Shown piece by piece: positions 14,808-48,072 of a stretch of DNA of 48,371 nt. Position 1 is the stretch's first letter; each line of letters begins with the position of its first letter. The position numbers and the translations under genes are program-made. The stretch covers positions 1-48,371 of the forward strand of contig CANRIG010000014.1 of NCBI GenBank assembly GCA_947630595.1, in the 5' to 3' direction. The stretch comes from an uncultured Lachnospiraceae bacterium. Its GTDB lineage: Bacteria; Bacillota; Clostridia; Lachnospirales; Lachnospiraceae. The notes under the pieces are model-generated. The model saw only the letters and a list, made by a program, of their open reading frames with translations. It did not search any database and was not told where the DNA came from.

Positions 14808-14895
14808 ATACACGGCCATCACCCCGCGCATGGCTCCGCCGCCAAATATACGCCCATCACCCCGCGCATGACTCCGCCGCCAGATATACGGCCAC
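14808..14895. repeat. 38-bp tandem repeat spanning the GH36 stop codon
   Basis: About 2.3 copies of a 38-bp unit, each with CCATCACCCCGCGCATG followed by CTCCGCCGCCA. The GH36 stop (14857-14859) lies inside a unit, so the last codons of the gene are duplicated downstream in shifted frames. The period is not a multiple of three. Confidence 0.85.
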
Positions 14896-17784
14896 CGCTC
14901 TCCAGTTTTCACGCGGACGGCAGCAGATTTGGCCGTTCTCCAGCCAGACCTCCGCTTTCTCGTCGGAATAGCAGTCTGCGATACGCCATTTTGTGCCGGA
15001 CGGCAGCGGCAGCCGGATGATATTCGGAATCGCTCCGCCGAACGTGTGCAGCACCAGATAAGCGTCACGGCAGCTTTGCTGTGCCTCCGGGCAGCCTTTT
15101 CCGTCCGTGCTCTCCGGACAGACTTTTCCGCCCATGCGCTCCGCGCAGTCTTTTCCATCCGTGCGCTCCGGGTAATCCTTATCGCCCGTGCGCTCCGAAC
15201 AACCTTTCCCGTCCGTGTGCTCTGAACAGCCTTTCTCGTCCGTGTGCTCCGAGCAACCCTTGCCGTCCGCATGCCCCGGCAGCTTCGCCTCTCCGGAGCC
15301 GACGCGAAGGACAGCCTGCCAGCCCTCCGGCTCGCGGATGTGCGCGATCTGCGGGCTCAGGTGATAGGTCTGGCCCTTTTTGATGATCGGCGCAATCCGG
15401 CGGTAAAAGGCAATGCCGCGCCCGATCACGTCCCACTGCTCCTCGCTCAGATTTGTCACGTCGCCGGACAGACACATCCTGCCGAGGAACGTGGCCGCCA
15501 CGGAGTAGGCGATCCGCTTCCGGCTGTCCGTTTCACGGATCACCGACCAGATCTGGCTCTGACGCGGCAGGATCGCCCTCTGCACGTTGGATGCGATGAT
15601 CGGAATTTCCACGCACTCGTGCGCATCGGAGAAGGAGGCCATCGACGTCGCCGCCATGAATCCGGGCTCCAGCCGGTGCCCGCCGGAAGCGCAATTTTCC
15701 AAGATGATACCCGGCACTTCCTCTCTGACCCGCGCGAAAAACGCCATGGTCGCCTCCATGTTGCGGCGCAGCCCCTCGCCCGGGGATTCCGCGCCGTCGC
15801 AGCCGACACCGATCGTGTCGTTGTAATCGACCTTCATGTAATCAAAACGATATTTTTTCAGTGTGCCGATCACGCGCTCTCCCAGATAATCCTGCACCCA
15901 GGGGTCGTTCATGTCCCAGAAACGCCGCCGGGTCGTCGTCAGAGGGAAGCCGTCCCGCCGCAGCAGATGATCGGTCTGATGAAAGGCGTCGGACGCATGG
16001 CCCACATTTTCAATCTCAAACCAGATGCCGGCTTTCATGCCCTCGTCGTGAATCGCCTGCACCGTTTTCTCAAGTCCCTGCGGAAACAGCGTCCGCGAGG
16101 GGAGATAATCGCCCATGCTGATGTCCCACGGCACTCCGTCCGCCTTGTACCAGCCGCAATCAATAACAAAATAGTCAAAGCCTCTGCCGCGGATGGCCTC
16201 AAGGATGTTGACAATGTTTTCGTGGGACGGACAGCCCCAGGTCGCACAGTATTCATTAAAGATGATTGGCAGCTCCTGCTCGCAGGCGGGACCGGCATCC
16301 GCCGCCTTTTCCCCGGCCTCCGTTAGGCGCTGACAGAACAGATCCAGAGCAAGATTCTCTCCGCACCCGTTCTCTGCTCCGCTCCGGTCTCCGATGTCAG
16401 CCCCGCCGCCCTGACTGTTCAGGTCCAGAGCAAGCTTCTCGTCACACCCGTTCGCCTCTCCGCTCCGGTCTCCGACGTCGGCCCCGCTGTCCTGACTGTT
16501 CAGGTTCAGCGCGAGATTCTCACCGCACCCGTTCTCTGCTCCGCTTCGGTCTCCGACATCCGCCCCGCCGCCCTGACTGCTCAGGTTCAGCCCGATGCGT
16601 TCCTCCGGGATATAAGCCACCGAGACGATCGCCTCCGGCGTCGTAAAGCGCTCTCCGGGTTTCAGCTCCTTCATCCAGTGGCCGAACTCCCGGTCGGCGA
16701 GGCCGCCGCTGACGGCGAGATTTTCATCAAAGCGGTAAAGCTCCATCTGCCAGGAAGCCGGATGCGCGAGCTGCGCGCCCCAGAACACATGATGCTTTGT
16801 GTCTTCCACGGCCAGGAACGGGAAATAGTGATTCACCGGCAGTGAACCGACCTGCCCGAAACGCTCGCAGCGCACGGAATCCCGGTTCCACGCAGTCTCG
16901 AGCTGCAGCTCCTCCAGCGTCTGCGACTGCAGCCGCCCCTCCTGGCTCCAGCGGGACTGCAGCCTGTGGACGGTAATGTCCCCGCTGCCGTTTCCCTCCA
17001 GGTACGCGGAAAGGCCGGTCAGGGAAAAGCTGGACAGCAGCTCCAGACGAATGGGCTGCTTCGACTGATTTTCGTATGTACAGTACATGCGCACAAAACG
17101 CGCGCCTTCCTCCCATACGGCCGTGTGCACCGCTTCGTAGCCGCGGTCGTCCCGCAGCACAGTGCGTACCCGGCGCTGCGCCCCGTCCTCCTCCAGCGTC
17201 TGGCCCGCAAACACGAGCCTCATGGCGCTCTCCGAATCCCGCAACGTATTGCCGGGCGCATAGCAGCCCTTATAGATGTCGCCGACGAGCTTCACCTGCA
17301 CCAGCGGGTCCATTCCGCCCGGCAGCCGCAGTCTGTACCGCGCCGCATCGTCCGGCTGTCTGGCCATTTTCGCCGCTGCCTCAGCCTCCGGCTGTCCGGT
17401 CGTTTTCACCGCTGCTCCGGCCTCCGGCTGCCCGAACATTTTCGCTGCCGCTGCTCCGGCCTCTGGATGTCCGGCCGTTTTCGCTGCCGCTGCTCCGGCC
17501 CCCGGCTGCCCGGCCATTTTCGCTGCCGCTGCTCCGGCCTCTGGATATCCTGCCGTTTTCGTTGCCGCTGCTCCGGCCTCCGGCTGCCCGGACATTTTCG
17601 CTGCCGCTGCCCCGGCCTCCGGCTGTCCGGCCGTTTCCGCCACTGCCCCGGCCTCCGGCTGCCCGGCCGCTTCCTCCAGCGGCAGGCAATCCGCCGGGTA
17701 CATCGCCAGCCCCGTGCGTCCCTGCCCGTCCTGTACATAACATAAAATCATATCTCCAAACTGATACCTGGTCTGTCTGTCCAT
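14857..17784 (-). CDS. GH36-family alpha-galactosidase with three in-frame repeat insertions
   Basis: An exo-glycosidase of clan GH-D, expected to release terminal alpha-galactose. The catalytic barrel shows IIFNEYCATWGCPSHENI, DYFVIDCGWY, and nucleophile Asp652 in YMKVDYNDTIG. GIILENCASGGHRLEPGF and acid/base Asp720 in SFSDAHECVEI follow. The family is usually about 720-750 residues; this one is 975 because of three low-complexity tandem repeats: about residues 38-145 (13-aa units around GQPEAGAAAAK), 397-481 (27-aa units around GADVGDRSGAENGCGE) and 838-900 (9-aa units such as TDGKGCSEH). They fall in the N-terminal beta-sandwich, at the sandwich/barrel junction, and in the C-terminal domain. 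The ATG at 17784 has AAAGGA upstream; the longer frame to 17847 does not. No signal peptide, so cytoplasmic. Last gene of the glycoside operon. Confidence 0.87.
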   Translation of the reverse strand: MDRQTRYQFGDMILCYVQDGQGRTGLAMYPADCLPLEEAAGQPEAGAVAETAGQPEAGAAAAKMSGQPEAGAAATKTAGYPEAGAAAAKMAGQPGAGAAAAKTAGHPEAGAAAAKMFGQPEAGAAVKTTGQPEAEAAAKMARQPDDAARYRLRLPGGMDPLVQVKLVGDIYKGCYAPGNTLRDSESAMRLVFAGQTLEEDGAQRRVRTVLRDDRGYEAVHTAVWEEGARFVRMYCTYENQSKQPIRLELLSSFSLTGLSAYLEGNGSGDITVHRLQSRWSQEGRLQSQTLEELQLETAWNRDSVRCERFGQVGSLPVNHYFPFLAVEDTKHHVFWGAQLAHPASWQMELYRFDENLAVSGGLADREFGHWMKELKPGERFTTPEAIVSVAYIPEERIGLNLSSQGGGADVGDRSGAENGCGENLALNLNSQDSGADVGDRSGEANGCDEKLALDLNSQGGGADIGDRSGAENGCGENLALDLFCQRLTEAGEKAADAGPACEQELPIIFNEYCATWGCPSHENIVNILEAIRGRGFDYFVIDCGWYKADGVPWDISMGDYLPSRTLFPQGLEKTVQAIHDEGMKAGIWFEIENVGHASDAFHQTDHLLRRDGFPLTTTRRRFWDMNDPWVQDYLGERVIGTLKKYRFDYMKVDYNDTIGVGCDGAESPGEGLRRNMEATMAFFARVREEVPGIILENCASGGHRLEPGFMAATSMASFSDAHECVEIPIIASNVQRAILPRQSQIWSVIRETDSRKRIAYSVAATFLGRMCLSGDVTNLSEEQWDVIGRGIAFYRRIAPIIKKGQTYHLSPQIAHIREPEGWQAVLRVGSGEAKLPGHADGKGCSEHTDEKGCSEHTDGKGCSERTGDKDYPERTDGKDCAERMGGKVCPESTDGKGCPEAQQSCRDAYLVLHTFGGAIPNIIRLPLPSGTKWRIADCYSDEKAEVWLENGQICCRPRENWRAVAVYLAAESCAG
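15083..15271. repeat. 27-bp tandem repeat, 7 copies, in GH36
   Basis: Seven units of exactly 27 bp encode nonapeptides like TDGKGCSEH, TDGKDCAER and MGGKVCPES on the minus strand. They sit inside the C-terminal domain of the GH36 enzyme and keep the frame. Confidence 0.9.
16339..16592. repeat. 81-bp tandem repeat, 3 copies plus a partial, in GH36
   Basis: Units at 16339-16419, 16420-16500 and 16501-16581 plus the start of a fourth; each encodes 27 residues around GADVGDRSGAENGCGENLA. They are 80-90% alike by eye and lie between the sandwich domain and the catalytic barrel. Confidence 0.9.
17350..17670. repeat. 36/39-bp tandem repeat, about 8 copies, in GH36
   Basis: Eight units encoding 12-13 residues around GQPEAGAAAAKMA on the minus strand. 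Some units lack one Ala codon, so length changes stay in multiples of three. Confidence 0.9.
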
Positions 17785-17835
17785 ACGCTGTCCTTTCACC
17801 GCTTCCGCGGTTATACCTCTGCTGAAATATGTTAT

Positions 17836-17925
17836 GGGAAACGACAAAACGATTTTCGTTTTGCTCGTTTCCCGCGCCGAATTTGCGCTGCGTAAGCAGC
17901 ATATTTCCGGTGCAAATTCGTGCGC
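17836..17925. repeat. Compound inverted-repeat element between GH4 and GH36
   Basis: First a near-perfect hairpin: GGGAAACGACAAAACGA (17836-17852) pairs with TCGTTTTG-C-TCGTTTCCC (17856-17873), with one bulge. Then a branched structure: GCGC and GAATTTGC (17874-17886) pair with GCAAATTC and GCGC (17912-17925), enclosing GCTGC-GTAA-GCAGC. No T-run follows, so it is not a plain terminator. It may be an mRNA-processing or stability element, or a small mobile palindromic repeat. Confidence 0.65.
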
Positions 17926-17981
17926 ATCCCCCGGAGGGACCGCAGCAAACGGAACATATATTTGACGTTTGCCATAAATCT

Positions 17982-19448
17982 TTACGCGGTTATCACGCGC
18001 TCCGCACGTTCGGCGGCAATCTCCTCCACCGTCTTCTCCTGCAGGCGCACCGCGCCCCTGTAGCCCTCATGTACCGGCAAAAGATTTCCGGAAGCCAGGC
18101 GTTTCTCGGCCTCCGCGATCGCCTCACGGTACTGCGGGAGCCACTCCGCCTCCGCGACCAGCATCTCGTCGATCATCTGCCATACCTCCGGCGGGTTGCA
18201 CACCGCTCCGGTCAGCGGATCCATCAGAGCCGCCTGTTTCAGCAGGTTCGCGTCGCCGCTCACCGCCGCTTCCACCGCCAGCTTCTGCACCCAGATCGAC
18301 TGAGAGCACACGGCCGCGCAGCCCAGAGGCAGATCGCCCACCTTTGGTACGCTGATTCCGTTTCCATCCACGAAACACGGCACCTCCACCACGCACTCGT
18401 ATGGCAGGTTCGTGATGCAGCCCTCATTCATTACGTTGAAGTGCCCGCGGTACTTCCGGCCTGTCTCCAGGCTCTCCATGATATAGGAGCAGTGCTCTTT
18501 TCCTCGCTCAGAGCCGTCCAGCTTCTTCGGCGGCTCCGCCAGAATCTTCGGGTACTCCGTTTCAAACCAGTTGCGTTCCTCCCGTGTGATCCGCAGATAA
18601 CCGCCGGTTTCCCCGTTGATCCAGTTGTCGGTATTGATCCACTGGGCGATCTCGTCCGGGCGTTTCCGATACCATGCCACGTACTCGGACAGATGGCCGT
18701 TGGACTCCGTCGAGTAATGGCCGAAGCGTTTCAGAATGTCGATACGCACTTTCTCTTCCTCGCTGAAACGCTTGTGCGCCTCGAAGCCGGCCAGCAGTTT
18801 GTCCTTCAGCTCCACGCCGTGGTGTTTCACGCTGATATACCAGGTCTGGTGATTGATGCCCGCGCAGGTGATATCCAGTTCCTCCCGCGGTATTCCCAGC
18901 ACCTCCGCAATCTGCATCTCGCCGTGAATCTCGCCGTGGCACAGGCCGATGGTCCTGACTCCGCCGTACTTGTTGCACGCCCAGGTCGCCATCGCGTTCG
19001 GGTTGGAGTAGTTGAGCAGGATGGCTCCCGGTTCCGCCACCTCGCGGATGTCCTTGCAGAAATTCAGCATCTCCGCGATCACGCGCTGGCCGTACATGAT
19101 GCCGCCGGTGCAGAGCGTATCGCCCACGCACTGATCCACGCCGTATTTCAGGGGGATATCTACATCCATCTCAAAGCCGCGCAGGCCGCCAATGCGGACG
19201 CAGTTGACGATGTATCTGGCATTTGTAAAAGCCTCCCGGCGGTCCGTGGTCGCCTGGATTTTGATCGGGATGTTGTTGCTGTCCAGATCACGCTGGCAGA
19301 GCTTCGTCACCTTGTCCAGGTTGTCCTTGTTTATATCGGTAAACACAATCTCGATGTCGTGAAATTCCGGAACAGACATAATATCCGTAAACAGCGTTCT
19401 GGTAAATACCAGGCTGCCTGCCCCGATAAACGCAACTTTAAAGCTCAT
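17982..19448 (-). CDS. GH4-family NAD- and Mn-dependent glycosidase (alpha-galactosidase/uronidase-like)
   Basis: 488 residues. The N-terminal Rossmann motif (VAFIGAGSLVFTRTLFTDI) binds NAD; IVFTDINKDNLDKV follows. The active site shows NYSNPNAMATWA, the metal/cofactor motif GLCHGEIHGEM and AGINHQTWY. GH4 enzymes cleave by a redox-elimination route rather than by acid hydrolysis. Known GH4 subgroups differ at the Cys-His-X position, and MelA alpha-galactosidases usually carry Cys-His-Ser. Here it is Cys-His-Gly, so substrates such as alpha-glucuronides or galacturonides are possible. GAGGAGG precedes the ATG. It lies between the DUF624 gene and GH36 in the operon. Confidence 0.88.
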   Translation of the reverse strand: MSFKVAFIGAGSLVFTRTLFTDIMSVPEFHDIEIVFTDINKDNLDKVTKLCQRDLDSNNIPIKIQATTDRREAFTNARYIVNCVRIGGLRGFEMDVDIPLKYGVDQCVGDTLCTGGIMYGQRVIAEMLNFCKDIREVAEPGAILLNYSNPNAMATWACNKYGGVRTIGLCHGEIHGEMQIAEVLGIPREELDITCAGINHQTWYISVKHHGVELKDKLLAGFEAHKRFSEEEKVRIDILKRFGHYSTESNGHLSEYVAWYRKRPDEIAQWINTDNWINGETGGYLRITREERNWFETEYPKILAEPPKKLDGSERGKEHCSYIMESLETGRKYRGHFNVMNEGCITNLPYECVVEVPCFVDGNGISVPKVGDLPLGCAAVCSQSIWVQKLAVEAAVSGDANLLKQAALMDPLTGAVCNPPEVWQMIDEMLVAEAEWLPQYREAIAEAEKRLASGNLLPVHEGYRGAVRLQEKTVEEIAAERAERVITA

Positions 19449-19508
19449 TTTATTGTTTCCTCCTCAATTAAGTAAAGTCACAAATTATATTTTCCGCCTC
19501 CGGTCCGC

Positions 19509-20159
19509 TCACTCCAGGTACCAGGGCAGATCATCCGAATCCGCATATTTCTCCCGTTCCTTTTTCAGATATTTCCGAAAAACCGGCTCTATGAGCAGGG
19601 AACTGACAAACGCGCAGATCCCCGGCAGAACCAGAAGGGAGAATGAAAACAGATACGCGCAGCACAGCACCGCGGCCAGCCAGAGAACCAGGACAAGCGT
19701 CGTCAAAGGATGTCCCACCGACATATGCAGGGCGTACTGCAGCTGCCTCGCCATGCCGGCGTCAAACCGGGACAGGACCGGAAAGATATATACGATCGTA
19801 AACAGAAACGGCGCGCCCAGCAGAATCCCCGCCGCAGCGTACGCATAAGGGCTGACGGCAGCCTCCCCCAGCCTTCCCCAGAGAAAGCCGTACGCTGCCA
19901 GCACAGCCCCGTAAGCCAGATACAGCACCGTGAGTCCGATTCCCTGCCGCAGATTTCCGCGGAAGGAATGAAAAAACGCCGACGTCACCGTGTCTCTTTT
20001 CCTGCGCACCACTTTTACCACCGTATAATACAGCGCCGCCGTCGCCGGCCCGATCGTGACGACCGGGAGCGAGCACAAAAGCCACAGAAATCCGGCGACC
20101 AGAAGATCCGCGATCTGTTCCGCTATATTCGCCGCAGGCGAATCCATTGATAATTTCAA
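19509..20159 (-). CDS. DUF624/YesL-family membrane protein
   Basis: 216 residues with about five TM segments (LLVAGFLWLLCSLPVVTIGPA; GLTVLYLAYGAVLAAYGFLW; AGILLGAPFLFTIVYIF; TLVLVLWLAAVLCCAYLF; LLVLPGICAFVSSLLI). PVVTIGPATAALYYTVVK near the N-terminus is the DUF624 signature. Proteins of this family sit in Firmicute operons with LplABC/YtcP-like sugar ABC transporters and glycosidases, as here; their function is unknown. It starts 12 bp after the permease gene. Confidence 0.88.
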   Translation of the reverse strand: MKLSMDSPAANIAEQIADLLVAGFLWLLCSLPVVTIGPATAALYYTVVKVVRRKRDTVTSAFFHSFRGNLRQGIGLTVLYLAYGAVLAAYGFLWGRLGEAAVSPYAYAAAGILLGAPFLFTIVYIFPVLSRFDAGMARQLQYALHMSVGHPLTTLVLVLWLAAVLCCAYLFSFSLLVLPGICAFVSSLLIEPVFRKYLKKEREKYADSDDLPWYLE

Positions 20160-20171
20160 TTTCAGACTCCT

Positions 20172-21062
20172 TTAGCTCTTGATGGCGCTGTCCACCTGGC
20201 CCTGAATAAAGTATTTCTGCAGGAACAGGTACACGACGATCAGCGGAAGCATGCCGATTACCGCAGTCGCCGCCGCGGAGCCGTAGTCGTTGGACACCGC
20301 GGAGAAGAACGTCTTGATGACCAGCGTGATCGTGCGCATTTCCGTTTTCTGCAGGAAATAGTAAGCGTACGTATACTCGTTCCATACGCTGACGCCCTGC
20401 AGAATGATGACGGTCACCGTGACGGTTTTCAGCTGCGGCAGAATGATCTTGAAGAAAATCTGCAGGTTGCTGGCGCCGTCGATCGCCGCCGCTTCATCCA
20501 GCGCCACCGGGATGGATGCGATAAAGTTCGTATACAGGAAAATCACCAGCGGCAGTCCGAACGCGCTGAGCACCAGCACCATGCCCCAGTAGGTGGAGGT
20601 CGCATGGATGTTAGACATCGTGGAGTACACACCGACCAGGATGGTCAGCGGCGTGATCATCATGACCGACATGATCAGGCTCCGCACCACTTCGTTTAAT
20701 TTCGACTGGTTGCGCGCCAGTCCGTAAGCCGCCATGCAGCCGAGCACAATCTCTACCAGAAGCACAAACACCGTGATAATCAGGCAGTTGCGGATACCCG
20801 TGAAGATTTCCCCGCTGGAGATTACCTTGTTAAAGTTCTCCCAGTATATGGGGGACGGGAACTGTATTCTGGAGGTTGTATCCTGAAACGATTTCAGAGA
20901 TACGTTGATAATGATGTAAAACGGAAACAGATAGATAATCAGCAGGCAGAGGCTTATGAGATATTTCCACCAGTCCTTCGCCCGGAATTCCATCTTCTCG
21001 ATATGTTCGCTTGTGGCGGTCACACCCACCTTTTCTTTTTTCAGTTTGTCCGTCAGGCTCAT
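20172..21062 (-). CDS. Carbohydrate ABC transporter permease (MalG/MsmG type)
   Basis: Six TM segments, starting with WWKYLISLCLLIIYLFPFYIIINV, and the cytoplasmic EAA loop (EAAAIDGASNLQIFFKIILP) that docks on the ATPase. It ends in GMLPLIVVYLFLQKYFIQG, typical of the family. The ATG at 21062 overlaps the previous stop (TGATG); a GTG one codon upstream is an alternative, and GGAGGTGGAG serves either. No ATPase is encoded in the operon, so a shared MsmK-like ATPase elsewhere probably powers it. Confidence 0.93.
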   Translation of the reverse strand: MSLTDKLKKEKVGVTATSEHIEKMEFRAKDWWKYLISLCLLIIYLFPFYIIINVSLKSFQDTTSRIQFPSPIYWENFNKVISSGEIFTGIRNCLIITVFVLLVEIVLGCMAAYGLARNQSKLNEVVRSLIMSVMMITPLTILVGVYSTMSNIHATSTYWGMVLVLSAFGLPLVIFLYTNFIASIPVALDEAAAIDGASNLQIFFKIILPQLKTVTVTVIILQGVSVWNEYTYAYYFLQKTEMRTITLVIKTFFSAVSNDYGSAAATAVIGMLPLIVVYLFLQKYFIQGQVDSAIKS

Positions 21063-21934: not shown

Positions 21935-21952
21935 ACGCGCTCCAATCTGAAC

Positions 21953-22001
21953 AAAAAATTTCGCACCCGGACGGTGCATGGACACTCATCCAGGTGCGAA
22001 A
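21953..22001 (-). terminator. Intra-operon terminator/attenuator after the binding-protein gene
   Basis: TTTCGCACCTGGA and TCCGGGTGCGAAA form a 13-bp stem on the minus strand with one G-T pair, directly followed by TTTTTT. It lies between the binding-protein stop and the first permease start, the usual place for partial termination that keeps binding protein in excess. Confidence 0.8.
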
Positions 22002-22013
22002 CCAATCCTTACA

Positions 22014-23318: not shown

Positions 23319-23401
23319 TTTCTGTTCCTCCTTTTTCTATTCTGCGCCGATTTGGCCCTCACATTTTCTCCAAATTCCGCTGTCAGCCCTTTCGCACCGC
23401 T

Positions 23402-23407
23402 ATCATA
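23402..23407 (-). promoter_or_regulatory. Possible -10 box of the glycoside operon
   Basis: TATGAT on the minus strand, 84 bp before the binding-protein start, without a convincing -35 box. A weak -35 is common at AraC-activated promoters. Confidence 0.3.
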
Positions 23408-23463
23408 TTTACCAATGACGGCCGCCGCGGAACCGGAATGCCTATGCAAAGTCCAATCATTTC

Positions 23464-23490: not shown

Positions 23491-23494
23491 ATAT

Positions 23495-38063: not shown

Positions 38064-38090
38064 GCCGCATTCACAATCCGGGCTGCCGCC

Positions 38091-38220
38091 CTTCCTGTTC
38101 CTCCGGCTGGTCTGTCGCCCCTCCTGTTCTTCCGGCTGGTTCGTTTACCGCCTTTCCTGTTCTTCCGGCCGATCTGTCTGCCGCTCTTCCTGTTCATCTG
38201 GCAAGCCGGCTGCCGTCCTT
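38091..38220. repeat. About 33-bp tandem repeat, 4 copies, downstream of allE
   Basis: Units of 29, 33, 33 and 31 bp begin with (C/T)TTCCTGTTC(T/C)TCCGGC and contain a TCTGTC(T)GCC stretch. They fill most of the gap between allE and allD. The minus-strand frame after the allE stop stays open for 57 Arg/Lys-rich codons through the array, but no start or ribosome-binding site supports translation. Confidence 0.8.
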
Positions 38221-40166: not shown

Positions 40167-40214
40167 GGGGTGCAGGCCGGAGATTTTGTGCCGCCATCCG
40201 CGGCAGACCGTGCG

Positions 40215-40425
40215 GATGTCTTCGATGTGTCGCGCGAATAGTTCATGATACGCTGCGCGGATATCCTCGATACACCGTGCAGATATCTTCGATATGCCGT
40301 GCAGACATCTTCGATACACCACGTGTGTATCCTCGATGCTCTGTGCGAATATCTTCGATACGTTATGCGGATATCCTCAATATGCCGTGTAGACTTCTTC
40401 GATACGTTTACGTTATGCGGATATC
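40215..40425. repeat. 22-bp tandem repeat, about 9 copies, with a palindrome in each unit
   Basis: Consensus GATATC(T/C)TCGATA(T/C)(G/A)CCGTGC(A/G). Most units contain ATATC-TTC-GATAT or a G-T variant, i.e. a small dyad every 22 bp, two turns of the helix. One unit is 23 bp and one 28 bp. No spacers, so not a CRISPR array. The 346-bp gap between the esterase and the NCS1 gene contains this array and the hairpin next to it and no gene. Confidence 0.88.
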
Positions 40426-40460
40426 AAGGCATGCAAAATGCAAAATATACAGAGTACAGA

Positions 40461-40497
40461 AATGCGCAGGGAGAACGATTTCGCTTCCCCGCGCATT
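40461..40497 (-). terminator. Possible terminator after the NCS1 gene
   Basis: AATGCGCGGGGA pairs with TCCCTGCGCATT with one mismatch, followed by TTCT rather than a long T-run. It lies 15 bp past the stop of the upstream NCS1 permease gene. Confidence 0.45.
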
Positions 40498-40512
40498 CTT
40501 AAATATCACATC

Positions 40513-41877
40513 TTATTTTTCCAGTGTGGTTCCCTTGCGGAAACGCGCGCAGGACGGCATATACTTCATGCAGAAGTAGAAAATCAGGGCCGTCGGAATC
40601 GTCGCCGTAAAGAAGGAAATGTTTACGTTGACCAGACCGATCACAGCGCCCACCGCAATCGCGATGATCGCAGCCCAGTTGACGCCCGCGTGGTTGCCGT
40701 GGTCGTCGTAGAGGTCGTCCAGCGTTTCCTTGGTGACGTTTCTGCGGTGCAGGATGAAGTAATCCGTGATCAGCACCGCAAAGATCGGGCCGAAGAACGC
40801 CGTGTAGAGCTTCGTGAACATGTCAAGGCCGGCCGCGGAGCTGTCGTTCGTGAGAATCCACGGGCAGGTGCAGACCGCCAGGATGCCGACGAGGATAACC
40901 GCCGTTCTGTGCTTCATCTTGAAGGTATCCATAAACGCGTAGGCAGGCGGAATGACGTTGCTGGCCAGGTTCGTCGAAAGCTGTGCGAAAATGATGAAGC
41001 CCAGCGTCACGACAAGGACGAGCTTGTTGTCAACCATCTGTGCAAATGCATTGATCGGGTTTGCGATTCCGGTCGCCGTGGAAGCCATTGCGCCGATCAG
41101 GCCCAGCAGCACGGTCGCCGGCACCATCGCCAGGAAATAGGAAACGCCGCGCACCGGTGCGGAGTAGCCCGTTTTCACCTCGCGCGAATAGTCGCCCGCG
41201 TTCAGCATGACGGTGGTGCTGTTGCCGAAGAACGCGATGACTGCGCCGATAAACGGCATGCCCCAGGTGCCGCTGTGGTTCATCAGCTTGGTGCCGATGA
41301 CGTCGCCGTACTGGGTGACGCAGATGTAAAGCAAATAGAGCATTGCCACCGAAATGACGACGCCGCCGATGTTGCCGACCCATTTTGCGCCCTGGAAGCC
41401 CTTGATCGACAACAGAATCTGTATCACCTGGAACAGAATGAAGTACAGCCAGATGTTGTCATAGCCGAAGAACGCAATGGAAATATTGTTCAGCGCCGCG
41501 CCGCCCAGCCAGGTCTGGAAGCCGTACCAGACGATTGCCGGCAGGCCCCTGAGCATGACGGGAACCACGCTTCCCTTGGTGCCGAACGCGCTCTTTAACT
41601 GAATCGCGTAAGGCGCGCCGGTCTTATAGCTGAACTGGTCGTTGAGCGTGATGCCGACAATCAGAATCATCGAGCCGATGAACACCGCCAGGAACAGCTG
41701 AATGAGGTTCAGGCCTTTCTCCAGCTGCGCGGAGCCCATGGTCAGGGTGCCGATGGAAATACAGCCGCCCAGCCACAGCATGGTGTTGGAACCCCAGCTC
41801 ATGATACGGTCTTTGGGCTGAATCGGGGCCAGCGAGCTGGCCTGTTTCTTTTCGTGATCGTTGTTTGTGTTACTCAT
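40513..41877 (-). CDS. NCS1-family allantoin permease
   Basis: 454 residues, 12 TM segments. Signatures match the first copy: LWLGGCISIGTLTMG, MLRGLPAIVWYGFQTWLGGAALN, WGMPFIGAVIAFFGNSTTVMLNAGDYSREVK, PPAYAFMDTFKMKHR and GPIFAVLITDYFILHRRNV. Both copies end with a similar RKGT(T/I) tail. It follows allB by 78 bp and is the likely allantoin importer. AAAGGAGAAGGA precedes the ATG. Confidence 0.9.
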   Translation of the reverse strand: MSNTNNDHEKKQASSLAPIQPKDRIMSWGSNTMLWLGGCISIGTLTMGSAQLEKGLNLIQLFLAVFIGSMILIVGITLNDQFSYKTGAPYAIQLKSAFGTKGSVVPVMLRGLPAIVWYGFQTWLGGAALNNISIAFFGYDNIWLYFILFQVIQILLSIKGFQGAKWVGNIGGVVISVAMLYLLYICVTQYGDVIGTKLMNHSGTWGMPFIGAVIAFFGNSTTVMLNAGDYSREVKTGYSAPVRGVSYFLAMVPATVLLGLIGAMASTATGIANPINAFAQMVDNKLVLVVTLGFIIFAQLSTNLASNVIPPAYAFMDTFKMKHRTAVILVGILAVCTCPWILTNDSSAAGLDMFTKLYTAFFGPIFAVLITDYFILHRRNVTKETLDDLYDDHGNHAGVNWAAIIAIAVGAVIGLVNVNISFFTATIPTALIFYFCMKYMPSCARFRKGTTLEK

Positions 41878-41955
41878 AATCCTTCTCCTTTCTCTTTCTC
41901 TCCGGGATAGAGGCGGGGCCTGCCGCTGTCAGAATCTGCAGCCCCGCTGCTGTCA

Positions 41956-43359
41956 TTATTTTACCGGCGTCACGTACTGTCCGTAGCCGACTGCATCCTC
42001 TTTGTAAACGCCGTCCTCCGCCACAACTTTGCCGCGGATGATCGTGCACACCGGAGCGCCCTTGCCCTCCAGGCCGTCGAAGCAGGATACGTGGCCCTTC
42101 GTGAACAGCTTCTCCTGCTCGCATTTCCACGCCTTGTCCGGGTCGACGATGACGATGTCGCCATCAAAGCCGAGCTCAAACGCGCCCTTGCGCCCGTAGA
42201 GTCCGAACACCTTCGCCGGATTGTAGTCCATGACCTTCGCGATCAGCGTCGGGCTCAGGCCTTTCTTATGCACCACCATGTCGAACATCATCGGCAGGAA
42301 GAACTGGATCGAGTTGAGGCCGCCCCATGCGTGCCAGATATCTTTTGTGGCATTATCCTTCTCCTCGTCCGCCGCCGGGGAATGGTCGCTTCCCACACAG
42401 GACAGCGTGCCGTCAAGCACATAGTCCCAGAGCTTTTCCATATCCTCTTTGGTGCGCATCGGCGGCGTGCATTTCGCCGGAGCGCCCTTTTCAAACACAA
42501 AGTCCTCGGTGAAGCCAAGGTAATGCGGGCAGGTCTCCGCCGTGACCGGCAGACCCTCGTGAATCGCGTCCTTCACCACCTGCGCTACCATCGGATGGCT
42601 GACGTGGCAGATATGTACGCGGCCGCCGGTCGCCCGCGCCATGTCGATGACGTTCTTGGTCGCCACATACTCGGTCCACACGTCGTGCGCGTCGAGGAAA
42701 TCGCGAATCTTTTCTTCATTGGTACGGCCCTCTTTCGCCTTGGCCTCTCTCTCCCGCTCGCGCACCTGGCCGAACTCCTCGCAGTGGAAGCCGCACAGCG
42801 CGCCGTAAGGCTTCAGAACCTCCAGGGCCTTGCGGACATTGCCCATGTTGACGGTCGGGAACAGATTGCCGTTGGGGCAGGTAAAGCCCTTAAATGCGGC
42901 CACGCCGCACTTGTGCAGATCGACCAGATCGTTTATATTATTCTTGACGGAATCCGGCTGGTCGTCGTAGTCGCCCACGATGCCGCCCCACAGCGCGAAA
43001 TCAACATAGGAATGCTTGCTGATCAGGCCCAGCTTCATGTCGAAGATTTCCTTGTTCATCAGCGACGGGTCGTTGTTCAGCGGCATGTCGATCAGGCAGG
43101 TGCAGCCCGCCGCCACCGCCGCGCGGGAACCGGTCGCGAAATCCTCGCGGTACTCAAAACCTGGCTCGTTCAGATGCGCGTGGCAGTCGATGATGCCCGG
43201 ATACACGTATCCGCCCTTAGCGTCGATGACCTCTTTGGCCTCCGCCTCCGCGCCCGGCAGCAGGAACGCCGCATATTTGCCGTCCGTGATGGCGATATCG
43301 GCCTCATAGATGCGGTCGGGGGTCACCAGTTTTCCGTTGCGAATCAATAAGTCATACAT
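41956..43359 (-). CDS. allB: Allantoinase
   Basis: 467 residues. Ligands are His60 and His62 (DCHAHLNEPG), carboxylated Lys157 (AFKGFT), His192 (FHCEEF), His252 (CHVSHP) and Asp325 (GSDHSP). CLIDMPLNNDPSL, TPPMRTKEDMEKLW and EKLFTKGHVSCFDGLEGKG are as in AllB. It opens the hydantoin ring of allantoin to give allantoate. AGGAGGG precedes the ATG; an NCS1 permease follows on the same transcript. This copy is closer to the classic AllB than the one at 25917-27290. Confidence 0.93.
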   Translation of the reverse strand: MYDLLIRNGKLVTPDRIYEADIAITDGKYAAFLLPGAEAEAKEVIDAKGGYVYPGIIDCHAHLNEPGFEYREDFATGSRAAVAAGCTCLIDMPLNNDPSLMNKEIFDMKLGLISKHSYVDFALWGGIVGDYDDQPDSVKNNINDLVDLHKCGVAAFKGFTCPNGNLFPTVNMGNVRKALEVLKPYGALCGFHCEEFGQVREREREAKAKEGRTNEEKIRDFLDAHDVWTEYVATKNVIDMARATGGRVHICHVSHPMVAQVVKDAIHEGLPVTAETCPHYLGFTEDFVFEKGAPAKCTPPMRTKEDMEKLWDYVLDGTLSCVGSDHSPAADEEKDNATKDIWHAWGGLNSIQFFLPMMFDMVVHKKGLSPTLIAKVMDYNPAKVFGLYGRKGAFELGFDGDIVIVDPDKAWKCEQEKLFTKGHVSCFDGLEGKGAPVCTIIRGKVVAEDGVYKEDAVGYGQYVTPVK

Positions 43360-43547
43360 TTTGTTTCCCTCCTTTAAATGATTTGTAGTAATATATAAAT
43401 TTTATTGCTACCATGATGTTGGGGACAGGTAATGCCATACGGGAACAAGTGATGCCATACGGATTGTTCCGTGCTTCACACCTTCGCAATCCTGCCCAAC
43501 ATTCGGAATGCATGGGGCCCCTGCCCTATTTCTTCCTCAGGTCCGGG

Positions 43548-43615
43548 CGGGTCGTTCCGTCATAAAACCGCTCCTGCGTGGGCGCATTGTGGTTTATGAC
43601 TTTTGCCCCCGGCAT
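43548..43615 (-). repeat. Dispersed palindromic element, copy 2
   Basis: Inverted copy of the element at 37997-38063. The core, 43559-43600, reads GTCATAAAACC ... GGTTTATGAC and pairs with itself. About 35 of 42 core positions agree with the reverse complement of copy 1. It sits between allB and allH, directly upstream of the allH ribosome-binding site. Confidence 0.75.
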
Positions 43616-43648
43616 CTCTGCTATATAGTTAATTAAGGAGTTATTGTT

Positions 43649-44752
43649 ATGAATCATCAAAACCAGTTTTCTGCAGCCTGCACGATCCGCCGCGCGTCGG
43701 AATACGCGCTGTCCCTGCTGCGGACGCATACGCGCGGAACAATACATTCCGTCTACCGGAAGACAGTCAACCTGCTGCTGGAGGAGCCGTGCGGCGCAGG
43801 CTTTGGGTCTGTATCACCCCAAAAGTCACATACTGTACTGGTGGCCCTGCAGGCCGCGGCGTCGCCGCTGTCCCCGGTCAGCCTGATCACCGGGCTGGGC
43901 GCAGAACAGATGGCTTCGCTCCCGCTCGCGCCGGGCATGGCCGTGTCGGTGTGTCAGGATTCCATCCTCGCAGCCTCCGGGTGCCGGTTTTTACTGAATG
44001 TATCCCATCCGGCCAGGCTGCTGCTGGACGCTGCGCTGCCGGAACCGGAGCTGCAGCTGCTGGAGCGGCGCATCGCGGAGGCGCTTTCCCTGCGCGACGC
44101 CGGCAGCTTTGAGCTGCTGTTTCATGCGCCGGAGCGCGCGGCGGAAATTCCGTTTCTGGCCGTCGCCGGAAAACGTCTTGCGGAAGCTGCGGAGGCGCTG
44201 CGGAGTGCTTCCCGCATCAAAACGGCGGAGGCTGCGCAGGGCGGTTCTCCTGAACATATACCGGAAGCTGCGCAAAGCGGTTCTCCTGAATATACATCGG
44301 AAGCCGCGCAGGGCGGTTCTCCCAAACATATATCGGAAGCCGCGCAGGGCGGTTCTCCCGTGCGCACAGTGAAAAATCCGGAAAACAGGTACTTTGCAGA
44401 GGCGGCGTCCTCCCTCGTCCGCCTTGTTGGGCTCGGGCTCGGCCTCACGCCCGGCGGGGACGATTTCCTCTGCGGCGTCCTCGCCGGCCTGATTCTCTGC
44501 GGCCGGCGGCAGCATCCGTTTGCGCTTTTACTCGCGGACGAAATCGCCGCTCACTTAAATGACACCAATAAAATCAGCGCAGCATTTCTTGCCTGCTCCC
44601 TGGAAAACCAGTTCAGCCAGGCAGTCAATGAACTGCGCCTTTGCCATTCGGCCGCAAAAATCCTGCGTATCTTTTGCGAAATCGGACATTCGTCCGGAAC
44701 CGATACGCTGTGCGGCATTTACTATGCAATTCAGCTGCGGACTCTGCTTTGA
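43649..44752 (+). CDS. allH: DUF2877 protein, third subunit of oxamate carbamoyltransferase
   Basis: 367 residues. The DUF2877/YlbF motifs are GLGLTPGGDDFLCGVLAGLILCG, FLACSLENQFSQAVNEL and EIGHSSGTDTLCGIYYAIQL. With FdrA (AllF) and the DUF1116 protein (AllG) it makes up the E. coli enzyme that splits oxalurate. E. coli YlbF is about 270 residues. Here residues 194-241 are four 12-aa repeats such as EAAQGGSPEHIP, an insertion placed before the TPGGDD motif; the N-terminal part is also longer. It is transcribed opposite to the other all genes. AAGGAG precedes the ATG. Confidence 0.88.
   Translation: MNHQNQFSAACTIRRASEYALSLLRTHTRGTIHSVYRKTVNLLLEEPCGAGFGSVSPQKSHTVLVALQAAASPLSPVSLITGLGAEQMASLPLAPGMAVSVCQDSILAASGCRFLLNVSHPARLLLDAALPEPELQLLERRIAEALSLRDAGSFELLFHAPERAAEIPFLAVAGKRLAEAAEALRSASRIKTAEAAQGGSPEHIPEAAQSGSPEYTSEAAQGGSPKHISEAAQGGSPVRTVKNPENRYFAEAASSLVRLVGLGLGLTPGGDDFLCGVLAGLILCGRRQHPFALLLADEIAAHLNDTNKISAAFLACSLENQFSQAVNELRLCHSAAKILRIFCEIGHSSGTDTLCGIYYAIQLRTLL
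44228..44371. repeat. 36-bp tandem repeat, 4 copies, in allH
   Basis: Units 44228-44263, 44264-44299, 44300-44335 and 44336-44371 encode EAAQ(G/S)GSP plus four variable residues. Inserted in frame. Confidence 0.92.
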
Positions 44753-44834
44753 CCACAGCTTCCCCCACACATTACTGTTCATGCATCTCCTTTTTTGCAG
44801 CAGCCTCCATATATAATGAAGGCTCTGCGAATTG

Positions 44835-44972
44835 TTCCGTGCCATGCACGCCCGTCAAAAGCCTGGCGGGCATTCTGTGCCATGCACGTCTGTCAGAGGC
44901 CCGGCAGACATTCATGCCGTGCACGTCCGTCAGAGACCCCGCGGGCATTCTGTGCCGTGCACGCCGTCTGTC
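44835..44972. repeat. 38-bp tandem repeat with covarying hairpin, about 3.6 copies
   Basis: Units at 44835, 44873, 44911 (37 bp) and 44948 (partial). Each contains GTGC-CAT-GCAC and a second stem with a 12-nt loop: GCCCG/CGGGC in unit 1, GTCTG/CAGAC in unit 2, GTCCG/CGGGC in unit 3. Changes on one arm are matched on the other. It lies between the convergent allH and citrate synthase genes. Confidence 0.85.
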
Positions 44973-46340
44973 TTACCTGCTTTCCAGTTCCACATACGGT
45001 CTGTGGTGCCCTACATATTTATACGCAGGGCGGACAATCTTGCCCTCGTTTACCAGCTCTTCAATGCGGTGCGCGCTCCAGCCGGCAATCCTTGAAATCG
45101 CGAAAATCGGCGTGTACATCTGCCGCGGAATCCCCAGCATCGAATACACAAGTCCGCTGTAAAAGTCGACATTGCAGCAAATCGGCTTGTGCAGGTTTTT
45201 GGTGCTGGTCAGAATATCGGAAGCGATGCGCTCCACCTTTTCATAGAGCTCGAATTCTTCGGTGCGCTCCTTTTCCTCGGAGAGCGATCTTGCATATTCT
45301 TTCAGAATCACCGCGCGGGGATCCGACAAGGTGTACACCGCGTGTCCCATGCCGTAGATCAGGCCGGTGCCGTCAAACGCTTCCTTATTGATGATCTTGG
45401 TCAGGTAAGCGCGAATCGCATTGTCATCGCCCCAGTTGTGCACGTGCGCCTTGATGTCCTCAAACATCTGCTCCACCTTGAGGTTGGCGCCGCCGTGCCT
45501 CGGGCCCTTGAGTGAACCGAGCGAAGCGGCGATCGCGGAATACGTGTCCGTGCCCGTGGAGGATACGACGTGCGTCGTGAAAGTGGAGTTGTTGCCGCCG
45601 CCGTGCTCCGCGTGAATCACCAGCGCGATGTCGAGCACCCGCGCCTCCAGCTCCGTGTATTTGCCGTCCGTGCGCAGAATCCGCAGAATGTTTTCCGCCG
45701 TCGAAAGCTCCGGCTTCGGGTAGCGGATCACCAGACTCTTATCATTGTGGTAATGCTGATACGAATGATACGCGTAAACCGAGATCAGCGGGAACGTCGC
45801 GATCAGCGTCAGGCACTGCTTGAGGACGTTAGGAATGCTGATATCGTCAGGGTTCTCATCGTAGGAATAGAGCGTCAGCACGCTCCGCTGCAGCGCGTTC
45901 ATGATGTCCATGCTCGGTGCTTTCATGATGACGTCGCGCACAAATTTGTTGGGCAGCTCCCGGTACTGACCCAGTATGTCAATAAACGAATCCAGCTGCT
46001 GCCGGTTGGGCAGCGCTCCGAATAAAAGCAGATAAGTAATCTCCTCGTAGTTGAATTTGCGGTCCGCAAATCCGTTTTTCAAATCCATAATATTGTAGCC
46101 CTGATAGTAGAGCTGGCCTTCCATGGGAATCTTCTCCCCCGCCGTCGTGTCGAAGGCGACGACGTCGGAAATCTCCGTCAGGCCGGTGAGCACGCCCTTG
46201 CCGTCGGACTCACGCAGCCCGCGTTTTACATCATATTCCTGATACAGGCTTAAATCCAGAGCGCCTGATATCATGCAGTACTTTACAAGCTCGGATAACC
46301 GGATGTCCCGAATCATCCTGGACTCATCACTGCTTACCAT
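44973..46340 (-). CDS. gltA: Citrate synthase
   Basis: 455 residues from the ATG at 46340, which follows AGGAGG by 8 nt; the frame opens two codons earlier at a TTG. Catalytic residues are visible: His in VIHAEHGGGNNSTFT, His in IYGMGHAVYTLSDPRAVIL and Asp in CCNVDFYSGLVYSMLG. SLGSLKGPRHGGANLKVEQMF is typical. It condenses oxaloacetate and acetyl-CoA. The N-terminal 60 residues are longer than in short bacterial forms and match the Clostridia type. No aconitase or isocitrate dehydrogenase is adjacent. Confidence 0.95.
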   Translation of the reverse strand: MVSSDESRMIRDIRLSELVKYCMISGALDLSLYQEYDVKRGLRESDGKGVLTGLTEISDVVAFDTTAGEKIPMEGQLYYQGYNIMDLKNGFADRKFNYEEITYLLLFGALPNRQQLDSFIDILGQYRELPNKFVRDVIMKAPSMDIMNALQRSVLTLYSYDENPDDISIPNVLKQCLTLIATFPLISVYAYHSYQHYHNDKSLVIRYPKPELSTAENILRILRTDGKYTELEARVLDIALVIHAEHGGGNNSTFTTHVVSSTGTDTYSAIAASLGSLKGPRHGGANLKVEQMFEDIKAHVHNWGDDNAIRAYLTKIINKEAFDGTGLIYGMGHAVYTLSDPRAVILKEYARSLSEEKERTEEFELYEKVERIASDILTSTKNLHKPICCNVDFYSGLVYSMLGIPRQMYTPIFAISRIAGWSAHRIEELVNEGKIVRPAYKYVGHHRPYVELESR

Positions 46341-46441
46341 ATGCAACTCCTCCTTTTCTCTCTGACCACGGCCGGCGCGGCTGCTGCCTGCCCGGGCGGC
46401 GCTTTCCGGCGGTGCGGTACGCCAGAGCTTCTTATGTGAAT

Positions 46442-46487
46442 AAAAGCGGGCGGCGTATTCCTCCTCTGGACTGCGTCGTCCGCTTTT
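46442..46487 (-). terminator. Terminator after the zinc-ribbon gene
   Basis: AAAAGCGGACGACG pairs with CGCCGCCCGCTTTT with two mismatches on the minus strand, ending in TTTTATT. Confidence 0.65.
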
Positions 46488-46490
46488 GTG

Positions 46491-47372
46491 TCAGTTTAGT
46501 ATTATAATATCCGCCGTTCCGTCGTCCGGCTGCGTATCCTGATCCGGCGATTCTTCGGGCGGTATTTTCTGATCTGCAGGCTGCGCCTCCTGATTTACGG
46601 CAGGCGGCTGTCCGCCGATGCGGTCCCGCGTGCTGCGGTCGGAACTTCTCAACCCGACCCAGAAAATACCGAATGCAAGCAGAGCTGCCAGAGATACCAC
46701 GATGACACCGATCAATACGCACTGTGCCGAAGTAAATCTCCGCTCGTCCTCATCCGCGCCCATTCGCTCCCACGATTGCCCCCAGCCGTCGTCCACACGA
46801 TACGGACGGGGATTTTGCTGCGGCCTGACCGGATTCTGATTCAACATCGGCTGCTGTGTATGTTGACTGCAGTTCGGCATCGGCTGCTGTGCACGCTGTC
46901 TGCGGTCGCCGTCTTCCGGCTCTGTCAGGCGGGGATTCCGCCGCTGGCCGGGTTGGGAAACAGATTGTGACTGGCTACTATTCGACGCCGACTGCTGTAC
47001 ACGCTGCCTGCGGCTGCTGTCTTCCGGCTCTGCCAGGCGGAAATTTCGCCGCTGGCCGGGCTGGGAAACCATTTGCGGCTGACTGCGATTCGACATTGGC
47101 TGTTGTACACGCTGTCTGCGGCCGCCGTCTTCCGGCTCTGTCAAGCGGGAATTTCGCCTCTGGCCGGGTTGGGAAACTGTTTGCGGCTGGCCGTAATTCT
47201 GGTTTTGTCCCTGGCCGCGGTTCACACGGGGAATGCTGTGCCCCGGATGATACGGCGGGCGGATGTCTGTCTGCTGCTGCCGTAACGGCTGCTGCATCCC
47301 GCAGTTATCGCAGGAACGACTGCCCGGAATGAGGGGCGCGCCGCAGCGTTCGCAATACCGGATGTCACTCAT
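46491..47372 (-). CDS. Membrane-anchored zinc-ribbon protein with 36-residue repeats
   Basis: 293 residues. The N-terminus is a zinc ribbon (Cys7, Cys10, Cys21, Cys24 in YCERCGAPLIPGSRSCDNCG). Residues 30-200 are low in complexity, rich in Gln, Pro and Arg, and include three 36-residue repeats around SQPGQRRNxRLTEPEDGGR. One TM helix (about 218-240, CVLIGVIVVSLAALLAFGIFW) follows, then an acidic, Pro/Gln-rich outer tail. Proteins with a cytoplasmic zinc ribbon and one TM are common in Clostridia and of unknown function. Its ATG overlaps the ArsR stop by 8 bp, so the two are made together. Confidence 0.8.
   Translation of the reverse strand: MSDIRYCERCGAPLIPGSRSCDNCGMQQPLRQQQTDIRPPYHPGHSIPRVNRGQGQNQNYGQPQTVSQPGQRRNSRLTEPEDGGRRQRVQQPMSNRSQPQMVSQPGQRRNFRLAEPEDSSRRQRVQQSASNSSQSQSVSQPGQRRNPRLTEPEDGDRRQRAQQPMPNCSQHTQQPMLNQNPVRPQQNPRPYRVDDGWGQSWERMGADEDERRFTSAQCVLIGVIVVSLAALLAFGIFWVGLRSSDRSTRDRIGGQPPAVNQEAQPADQKIPPEESPDQDTQPDDGTADIIILN
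46882..47193. repeat. 108-bp tandem repeat, about 3 copies, in the zinc-ribbon gene
   Basis: Units 46882-46989, 46990-47097 and 47098-47193 encode the 36-residue repeats; the 108-bp period is strict between the first two. Confidence 0.92.
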
Positions 47373-48072
47373 TGCTCCCGCCCCATTTCATCACATAAGC
47401 GCTGATTGCCGCCAGCTTTTCGCTGTTCGTCCTGTAATAAGACCATTTCCCCTGCTTTCTGCAGTGCACAAGATCATGTTCCACCAGCACCCTCATGTGG
47501 TGCGATAAAGTAGACTGTACAATAGGAAGAGACTGCAGCAAATCTCCGGCGCATTTTTCGCCTTCCAGCAAAAGCGTCAAAATCTGCATCCGGCTCTCGT
47601 CCCCGAGCGCCCGCAGCGCCTCCGCCATCTCAGCCTCAGAGAGGTCTGTCAGCTTTGTTTTCCCTGTGCCGGAAATTTCAGCCGTTTTTATCTTTCTTTC
47701 CCCGGAAGCCTTCGCTGCTTCTGTCTTGTTTTTGCTGAAAATCTCCGCTGTTTCTGCTTTCCTTTCGCTGAAAACTTCTGCTGTTTTTGCCTTTCTTTCG
47801 CTGGAAACCTCCGCTGTTTTTGCCTTTCTTTCGCTGGAAACCTCCGCTGTTTTTGCTTTCCTTTCGCTGAGAATCTCCGCTGTCTTTGACTTTTCAGCTT
47901 CAAAGGACATTCTTTTCTTTTTGTCTTCCTGCGTCCTCTTTTCTTTTTTCGGCGGTTTTTCTGGTTTCTGTGCTTTCTCTGATTTCAGCGTCTTCTCTGC
48001 TTTCAGCAGTTTCTCTTCTTTCCCCTTATTTTTACCTTTTTTTTGTTTCTCCTGTTTTTTCTTCTTCCCCAT
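47365..48072 (-). CDS. ArsR-family regulator with a long Lys-rich repetitive N-terminus
   Basis: 235 residues from the ATG at 48072; a TTG at 48093 would add seven. The last 90 residues are an ArsR winged helix: LSEAEMAEALRALGDESRMQILTLLLEGEKCAGDLLQSLP, then STLSHHMRVLVEHDLVHCRKQGKWSYYRTN. ArsR proteins are usually 90-120 residues. Here about 140 residues precede the domain: a very Lys-rich stretch (MGKKKKQEKQKKGKNKGKEE), then seven or so 11-residue repeats like KTAEVSSERKA. The composition recalls histone H1-like bacterial tails and may give non-specific DNA binding or a coiled coil. The metal-site Cys pattern of ArsR/SmtB is not obvious (single Cys in GEKCAGD), so the signal is unknown. Confidence 0.87.
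   Translation of the reverse strand: MGKKKKQEKQKKGKNKGKEEKLLKAEKTLKSEKAQKPEKPPKKEKRTQEDKKKRMSFEAEKSKTAEILSERKAKTAEVSSERKAKTAEVSSERKAKTAEVFSERKAETAEIFSKNKTEAAKASGERKIKTAEISGTGKTKLTDLSEAEMAEALRALGDESRMQILTLLLEGEKCAGDLLQSLPIVQSTLSHHMRVLVEHDLVHCRKQGKWSYYRTNSEKLAAISAYVMKWGGSNE
47660..47890. repeat. 33-bp tandem repeat, about 7 copies, in the ArsR gene
   Basis: Units of 33 bp encode KTAEVSSERKA-like 11-mers; the central three are almost identical and outer ones diverge. Confidence 0.9.

Follow-up and report, generated by a model that had tools for sequence, protein, structure and literature searches.

Genome-wide minisatellites in an uncultured Lachnospiraceae bacterium, in frame inside genes and of free period elsewhere

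We report that the genome of an uncultured Lachnospiraceae bacterium carries minisatellites of unrelated sequence throughout the stretches that we sampled, inside genes as well as between them. The reading that we favor, with a probability of about two in three, is that this lineage is unusually prone to short tandem duplication, that the products are filtered by reading frame and by protein fold, and that the process is several-fold stronger here than in the genus. Such a genome allows the birth of minisatellites to be measured on the arrays outside genes and their selective filtering on the arrays inside genes.

RESULTS

Tandem arrays in the window

The stretch of DNA under analysis (48,371 nucleotides, termed the window) corresponds to the complete contig C14 of a draft genome of 3.31 Mb (151 contigs, 99% complete). 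Matches of its citrate synthase place it in the Lachnospiraceae, the best of those with names being a bin of unclassified Lachnospiraceae (89%), Parablautia sp. Marseille-Q6255 (88%), and Lapin bins. A first-pass annotation, made from the sequence alone, had described at least ten arrays within 33 kb, six of them inside genes for a GH36 protein (three arrays), an AllH protein, a zinc-ribbon protein, and an ArsR regulator. Tandem Repeats Finder (TRF; score of at least 100, overlapping rows merged) recovered ten arrays between positions 14808 and 47893, with matching periods, and Pfam agreed with the four hosts, the zinc ribbon scoring below its cut-off. Six of the ten arrays lie inside genes, one runs across the GH36 stop, and three are located between genes (at 38083, 40247, and 44835). 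The host genes and the arrays are as follows.

14857..17847, (-) strand: GH36 alpha-galactosidase-like gene, 996 aa from a TTG start (975 aa in the database copy); Pfam Melibiase at residues 523-825
43649..44752, (+) strand: AllH-like gene, 367 aa; Pfam AllH at residues 259-360
46491..47372, (-) strand: zinc-ribbon membrane protein gene, 293 aa; Pfam Zn_Ribbon_1 at 21.3 bits (cut-off, 25)
47365..48093, (-) strand: ArsR-type regulator gene with a long N-terminal extension; Pfam HTH_5 at residues 165-209
14808..14894, no strand: 38-bp array spanning the GH36 3' end (stop), 38 of its 87 bp within the gene (TRF)
15081..15269, (-) strand: 27/54-bp array, GH36 residues about 859-922, ahead of the C-terminal strands (TRF)
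16345..16590, (-) strand: 81-bp array, GH36 residues about 419-501, N-terminal to the Melibiase domain (TRF)
17351..17668, (-) strand: 39/78-bp array, GH36 residues about 60-166, N-terminal linker (TRF)
38083..38202, no strand: about 33-bp array with indels, between an Ldh_2 gene and a cupin gene (TRF, gene finder)
40247..40405, no strand: 22/44-bp array between genes (TRF, gene finder)
44226..44358, (+) strand: 36-bp array, AllH residues 192-237, directly N-terminal to the Pfam domain (TRF)
44835..44968, no strand: 38-bp array between the AllH and citrate synthase genes (TRF)
46873..47189, (-) strand: 108-bp array in the linker between the zinc ribbon and the membrane helix of the zinc-ribbon protein (TRF)
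47673..47893, (-) strand: 33/99-bp array in the N-terminal extension of the ArsR-type regulator, residues 67-140 (TRF)

TRF also returned an eleventh array outside this span (positions 9998-10111, 21 bp), which is an ordinary one in an apparent coiled-coil heptad region. In an FtsX/MacB-type permease of 1,448 aa (positions 8293-12639), several repeats of 21 bp probably encode a long coiled-coil insert. A PD-(D/E)XK family transposase gene (13629-14648) adjoins the array-rich GH36 gene, and a 793-aa open reading frame (3158-5539, + strand) that matches MutS_V over part of its length is probably MutS2.

Array density in the genome and in related species

We then looked into the rest of the genome. 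A sample of 848 kb, composed of the window and the two terminal 20-kb stretches of each of 20 large contigs (40 in all) and amounting to about a quarter of the genome, contained 118 arrays with a TRF score of at least 100, or 139 per Mb; a further 20-kb stretch with four arrays (L248), added later, does not enter this count. The density was 134 per Mb without the window (107 arrays in 800 kb), and the whole genome would hold about 460 arrays if the sample is typical. The arrays are head-to-tail copies with unit sizes of the minisatellite or VNTR-type class (about 10 to 200 bp); their median period is 42 bp, their periods range from 8 to 180 bp, and they have a median of 2.9 copies. With the same settings, we found 35 arrays in 1.057 Mb from 19 species of the same genus (7 to 100 kb each), i.e., 33 per Mb (rate ratio of 4.2, p = 3e-16), 10 arrays in 431 kb from nine genomes of other families (23 per Mb), and none in 100 kb of Escherichia coli K-12. 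Order-2 Markov resampling of 448 kb yielded no array with a score of at least 100, versus 63 observed. Arrays are therefore not equally rare elsewhere in the 848-kb sample, and the view of the first-pass annotation that a repeat-forming process is active genome-wide is borne out by the comparison with the 19 siblings. The siblings nearest in density were G023 (100 per Mb) and G003 (85 per Mb), each with about 60 kb sampled. The neighborhoods of citrate synthase in 79 named loci averaged 120 arrays per Mb (70 loci of at least 10 kb), a value that we do not take as a genome density because these loci contain the array-prone ArsR and zinc-ribbon genes.

It seems very improbable that the genome is unremarkable and that TRF caught nothing beyond the low-complexity linkers, coiled coils, and cell-wall repeats to be found in any genome. 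Some arrays look plainly of this sort (periods in multiples of 21 bp, choline-binding repeats, T/E/P-rich linkers of surface-type proteins), and the siblings have some too. However, the density is still 126 per Mb when periods in multiples of 21 bp are removed, the E. coli stretch had no array at all, and the intergenic arrays of free period would be left unexplained. An assembly or binning artefact is hardly credible: the draft genome consists of 151 contigs and many relatives are titled MAG, but the copies are imperfect and in frame, an identical AllH array exists in another record, the arrays of homologues come from other assemblies, and contig ends are not enriched, as 2 of the 42 ends examined were within 100 bp of an array.

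The consensus units of the 118 arrays appeared unrelated by eye, except for neighbors within one gene, which extends to the whole sample what had been claimed of the units in the window. We thus did not find the related units of a dispersed mobile repeat family (RPE, PU/REP, transposed satellites). A common core motif was sought by k-mer enrichment and rejected, since the enrichment was only weak (e.g., AACGGAAG in 7 arrays versus 0.23 expected); several enriched k-mers come from adjacent arrays of one surface-type gene. Two long intergenic arrays are among the best matched of the sample, L184:15395-15900 (131 bp, 3.9 copies, 94% match) and L006:18226-18508 (68 bp, 4.1 copies, 96% match).

Arrays inside genes preserve the reading frame and avoid folded domains

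Genes were predicted with a codon-Markov finder trained on the sample (703 genes, 84% of the sequence covered). The period was divisible by three in all 60 arrays located inside genes, compared to 21 of the 58 arrays at gene edges and between genes (Fisher p = 6e-16), a contrast that the finder somewhat favors because an array that shifts the frame would truncate its gene and be scored as an edge array. The latter proportion is about the one third expected without constraint. It is composed of 4/21 arrays at gene edges and 17/37 between genes, the 108-bp array of the window being counted among the intergenic ones, though truly in-gene, because the finder missed the zinc-ribbon gene. Exclusion of the window, which had been chosen for its arrays, left 54/54 versus 19/53 multiples of three, and exclusion of multiples of 21, which are possible heptads, left 53/53 in-gene periods divisible by three. 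The siblings showed the same pattern, with 25 multiples of three and one exception among 26 in-gene periods. Among the edge arrays, 16 of 21 were at 3' ends. The filtering by selection on frame that had been suggested from the window is therefore found across the sample. As all in-gene periods are multiples of three, a frame-switching contingency mechanism (phase variation) does not describe the arrays inside genes.

By our own arithmetic, coding DNA contains about 84 arrays per Mb and noncoding DNA 424 per Mb, when edge arrays are counted as noncoding. A frame filter alone would bring the expected coding density to 141, a third of the noncoding value, and the shortfall to 84 fits a second filter, against folded domains. 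We found a Pfam domain above the cut-off in 35 of 42 array-bearing genes, and in 32 of these 35 no array overlapped the best stretches (hand count, with the single best stretch per family considered). In the remaining three, arrays fall in choline-binding repeats, in a coiled-coil protein, and over three residues of a beta-propeller. Arrays were located right before the second half of diaminopimelate epimerase (DapF), between the SAM and HemN_C domains of a HemN-like radical-SAM enzyme, and between the J and C-terminal domains of DnaJ; further hosts include IF-2, a signal peptidase, a SpoU-type methylase, an Orn/Lys/Arg decarboxylase, and a MatE transporter. When the copies within genes were pooled, leaving out two arrays with a pN of at least 0.4, we obtained a pN of 0.14, a pS of 0.34, and a dN/dS of 0.35, from which it follows that the lengthened linkers are under some constraint, in a few cases perhaps by being true repeat domains.

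GH36, AllH, and zinc-ribbon proteins

Full-length homologues of the GH36 protein in the genus have stop-to-stop frames of 698 to 786 aa, compared to 996 aa here, and align as blocks covering residues about 177-412, 500-851, and 928-990, so that all three arrays are left out. Among the 119 other best matches listed (of 3,145), the median length was 701 and the longest was 838. A paralogue on contig C121 of the same genome is devoid of the 39/78-bp and 81-bp arrays and has 7 and 27 residues in their place, versus 119 and 75; the 39/78-bp array itself occurs only once in the whole genome. The AlphaFold model (32 sequences, mean pLDDT of 69, pTM of 0.72) resembles GH36 alpha-galactosidases such as AgaA. 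Its long internal segments with a pLDDT below 50 (residues 59-176, 419-496, and 854-924) compare with arrays at 60-166, 419-501, and 859-922, i.e., the three arrays are predicted to fill low-confidence loops of the model.

The AllH-like protein (367 aa) is also long for its family, the median being 289 among the 120 listed of 314 matches. Its clear homologues in the genus lack the array (G002, G011) or carry a 66-bp array in a different loop (G003, by TRF). In a 98%-identical protein, the array region is unchanged residue for residue. All seven differences between these two proteins fall inside residues 48-57, another variable loop, and have the appearance of a one-step block replacement.

The zinc-ribbon gene, although overlooked by the gene finder, has matches in 17 of the 47 genomes of the genus (its own included). 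We examined 12 of the 16 sibling genomes with a match, representing 13 loci, and TRF revealed linker arrays with other periods or units in 8 of the 13 loci (7 of the 12 genomes). The periods were 84 bp in G017, 36 and 108 bp in G002 (two copies), 45 bp in G016, and 75 bp in G019, and a 39-bp period was common to G042, G023, and G043. Within these 13 loci, TRF found no linker array in G011, G004, and G024, and G041 and G018 carry one elsewhere. The protein database contains one other match, which is identical at 59/62 positions of the N terminus, 73/80 around the membrane helix, and 21/24 of the C terminus. Its repeat linker is 25 residues shorter (95 versus 120 here), and a repeat-like stretch ahead of the tail is 53 residues longer (60 versus 7). 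Since several siblings have different repeats in the same loops, they provide a direct view of changes in linker length in conserved proteins. The findings also caution that a metagenome protein of outlying length may be genuine.

The linkers had been expected to vary rapidly. The zinc-ribbon protein of a very close relative, with its altered linker and tail, accords with this expectation; the AllH array, unchanged at 98% identity, and the age of most arrays (see below) do not. Fast linker change is thus seen once and absent once.

Homologous loops in siblings

Homologues of the HemN-like protein in 15 siblings have open frames of 395 to 610 residues (530 here), with a loop that is short or otherwise extended and that contained TRF repeats in only one of the 15 (G001). 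The DapF loop also varies in length among siblings, and TRF found repeats in 0 of 15. The MutL linker contained arrays, with other units, in 3 of 9 siblings (G003, G005, and G002). The recurrence of arrays in the zinc-ribbon and MutL loops reflects either repeated array birth or the turnover of old arrays to units proper to each species, the latter being compatible with our data because several zinc-ribbon linkers share the 39-bp period.

We considered whether linker arrays are selected as tunable spacers, forming a contingency system for enzyme evolution. The same loops bear repeats in several species in the case of the zinc-ribbon protein and MutL, and linker length differs between close relatives, as this proposal would have it. 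Nonetheless, we regard it as improbable: several of the hosts are housekeeping proteins without an evident need for variation (DapF, the HemN-like enzyme, DnaJ, IF-2), and arrays outside genes and at edges are about as frequent as those inside genes (68 and 71 per Mb of sample, respectively), are far denser per base, and show the largest rise relative to the siblings. This rise is eightfold for the nongenic and edge class (68 versus 8.5 per Mb) and threefold for the genic class (71 versus 24.6 per Mb), which argues for mutation rather than for selection of repeats in proteins.

Age of the arrays and signs of recent duplication

The median match between the copies of an array is 84%, and a match of at least 95% is reached in 8 of the 118 arrays; most arrays are therefore old. 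Near-identical duplications were nevertheless commoner here, with 32 in 848 kb (37.7 per Mb), than in the 19 siblings, with 15 in 1.057 Mb. In the 23 of these 32 that have fewer than three copies, the ends share a median of 7 bp, whereas a null obtained by in silico doubling had a median of 0; the 12 of the 23 that lie outside any longer array gave the same result. Such shared ends are compatible with slippage, or a switch of template, from one short direct repeat to another, and preexisting repetition may also lengthen them. The nested periods (27/54, 39/78, 33/99, and 22/44) point to later rounds of duplication. Near the MutL gene (L229:6292-6449), we noticed two consecutive 15-bp arrays, the first with 5.4 copies at a 98% match.

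An ordinary duplication rate combined with weaker purifying selection, owing to a small effective population, would let more short duplications persist. The divergence of most arrays and their gathering where constraint is weak (loops, gene ends, and spacers) speak for this alternative, which we rate as unlikely but worth serious attention. The excess of near-identical duplications is against it, and the frame filter and the dN/dS of 0.35 indicate that selection is still working. Array density increased with G+C (Spearman coefficient of 0.52, p = 0.013, computed over the 22 genomes represented by 40 kb or more, after removal of named loci shorter than 10 kb), and the G+C of this genome is above that of most siblings sampled. 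A higher G+C is not a usual sign of relaxed selection.

DISCUSSION

We consider a raised birth rate of duplications the simplest account of these results, and weaker removal the next. Our data show the density, the unrelated units, the frame filter, the position outside domains, a gain of arrays specific to this lineage, the short shared ends of near-identical duplications, and a change of length in one protein; the slippage mechanism, and a birth rate raised beyond what retention alone would give, are inferred. Short tandem duplications (about 15 to 180 bp) would form at an unusually high rate, probably where short direct repeats allow slippage or template switching. They would be born at unrelated sequences all over the genome and then diverge by point mutation, and further rounds would add or drop copies, giving nested periods. 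Selection would purge the duplicates that shift the frame and those within folded domains, leaving free-period arrays in intergenic DNA and at gene ends, along with in-frame arrays in interdomain loops. Several observations go against this proposal. The eight arrays with a match of at least 95% are fewer than expected for a very active process, unless assembly lost perfect arrays; the AllH array did not change at 98% identity; the DapF and HemN loops of the siblings are nearly free of repeats; the densities derive from about a quarter of this genome and from 7 to 100 kb per sibling, with G023 and G003 coming close; and the six repair families described below are present.

Disordered protein regions can grow by repeat expansion. 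The repeats of E. coli tolA exemplify the growth of a linker or disordered region by repeat duplication (PMC3477136), and, as far as the consulted part of that article goes, such cases concern single proteins or protein classes, while the arrays described here are genome-wide and have a matching noncoding class. We had been led to expect that no described system behaves in this way, an expectation that does not hold, since satellite-rich prokaryotes have been reported (PMC6749651, PMC8161180, each in the sections consulted). Subirana and Messeguer described, in the sections of their article that we draw on, prokaryotes such as Methanobrevibacter ruminantium and Clostridioides difficile with unique, unrelated satellites, the long repeats being mostly multiples of three and their birth being ascribed to replication anomalies; at least half of the long repeats of M. 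ruminantium are noncoding (PMC6749651). A genome counts as satellite-rich by the criterion given there if satellites of four or more repeats exceed 4 per Mb (PMC6749651). Using an approximation of the four-decamer criterion of SATFIND, we found 42 such satellites in the 848 kb, i.e., 49.5 per Mb by this rough copy of the criterion, well within the satellite-rich range and compared to 37.4 in Methanosarcina mazei, the highest value noted in the same sections (PMC6749651). The siblings had 7.6 per Mb, the other families 9.3 per Mb, and E. coli 0; TRF arrays with at least four copies numbered 25 in our sample (29 per Mb). In comparison with the satellite-rich prokaryotes as portrayed in those sections (PMC6749651), the arrays here occupy loops of housekeeping enzymes, and 46 congeneric genomes are available for comparison.

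According to the portion consulted of a survey of Bacillus, most bacteria have few repeats, and a class of tandem repeats with sizes in multiples of three, prominent in the B. cereus group, encodes amino acid repeats (PMC8161180). The Bacillus repeats presented there mostly keep to a constant size, 20-21 or 52 nt, and group into families (PMC8161180), unlike the free periods, from 8 to 180 bp, and the unrelated units found here. Small variable segments of bacterial genomes comprise short in-frame length changes within genes between strains, some of them minisatellites, which make up 2-4% of the variable loci in E. coli alignments in the portion of that work that we refer to (PMC2884548); our own data consist of the arrays themselves. 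In the open-licence literature (titles and starts of abstracts), we found no account of the subject for Lachnospiraceae, gut bacteria, or Clostridia. This genome is thus an extreme member of a known, satellite-rich kind, and what sets it apart is that arrays occupy loops of housekeeping enzymes and that it contrasts with its siblings.

Repair genes

We did not find a lost repair gene among the six families searched, as MutS, MutL, PolA (5' nuclease), SbcD, RecJ, and XseA are all present. Judging from MutS_V and DNA_mis_repair matches in stop-free frames (G000), the genome does not appear to be a mismatch-repair mutator by loss of mutS or mutL. MutS seemed to exceed the length found in most siblings by about 100 aa, a difference that we attribute to upstream read-through in the stop-to-stop frame and not to an insertion. 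We hold it doubtful, though conceivable, that an inherited tandem-duplication mutator state lengthens loops in many protein classes and that arrays in MutL, RecJ, and SbcD weaken these guards, in which case the process may feed itself. Loop minisatellites are indeed found in these three repair proteins, with periods of 39 and 33 bp in MutL (L229, G000:C23), 78 bp in RecJ, and 72 bp in SbcD, and the stretches concerned are L229, L326 (G000:C17), and L239 (G000:C34).
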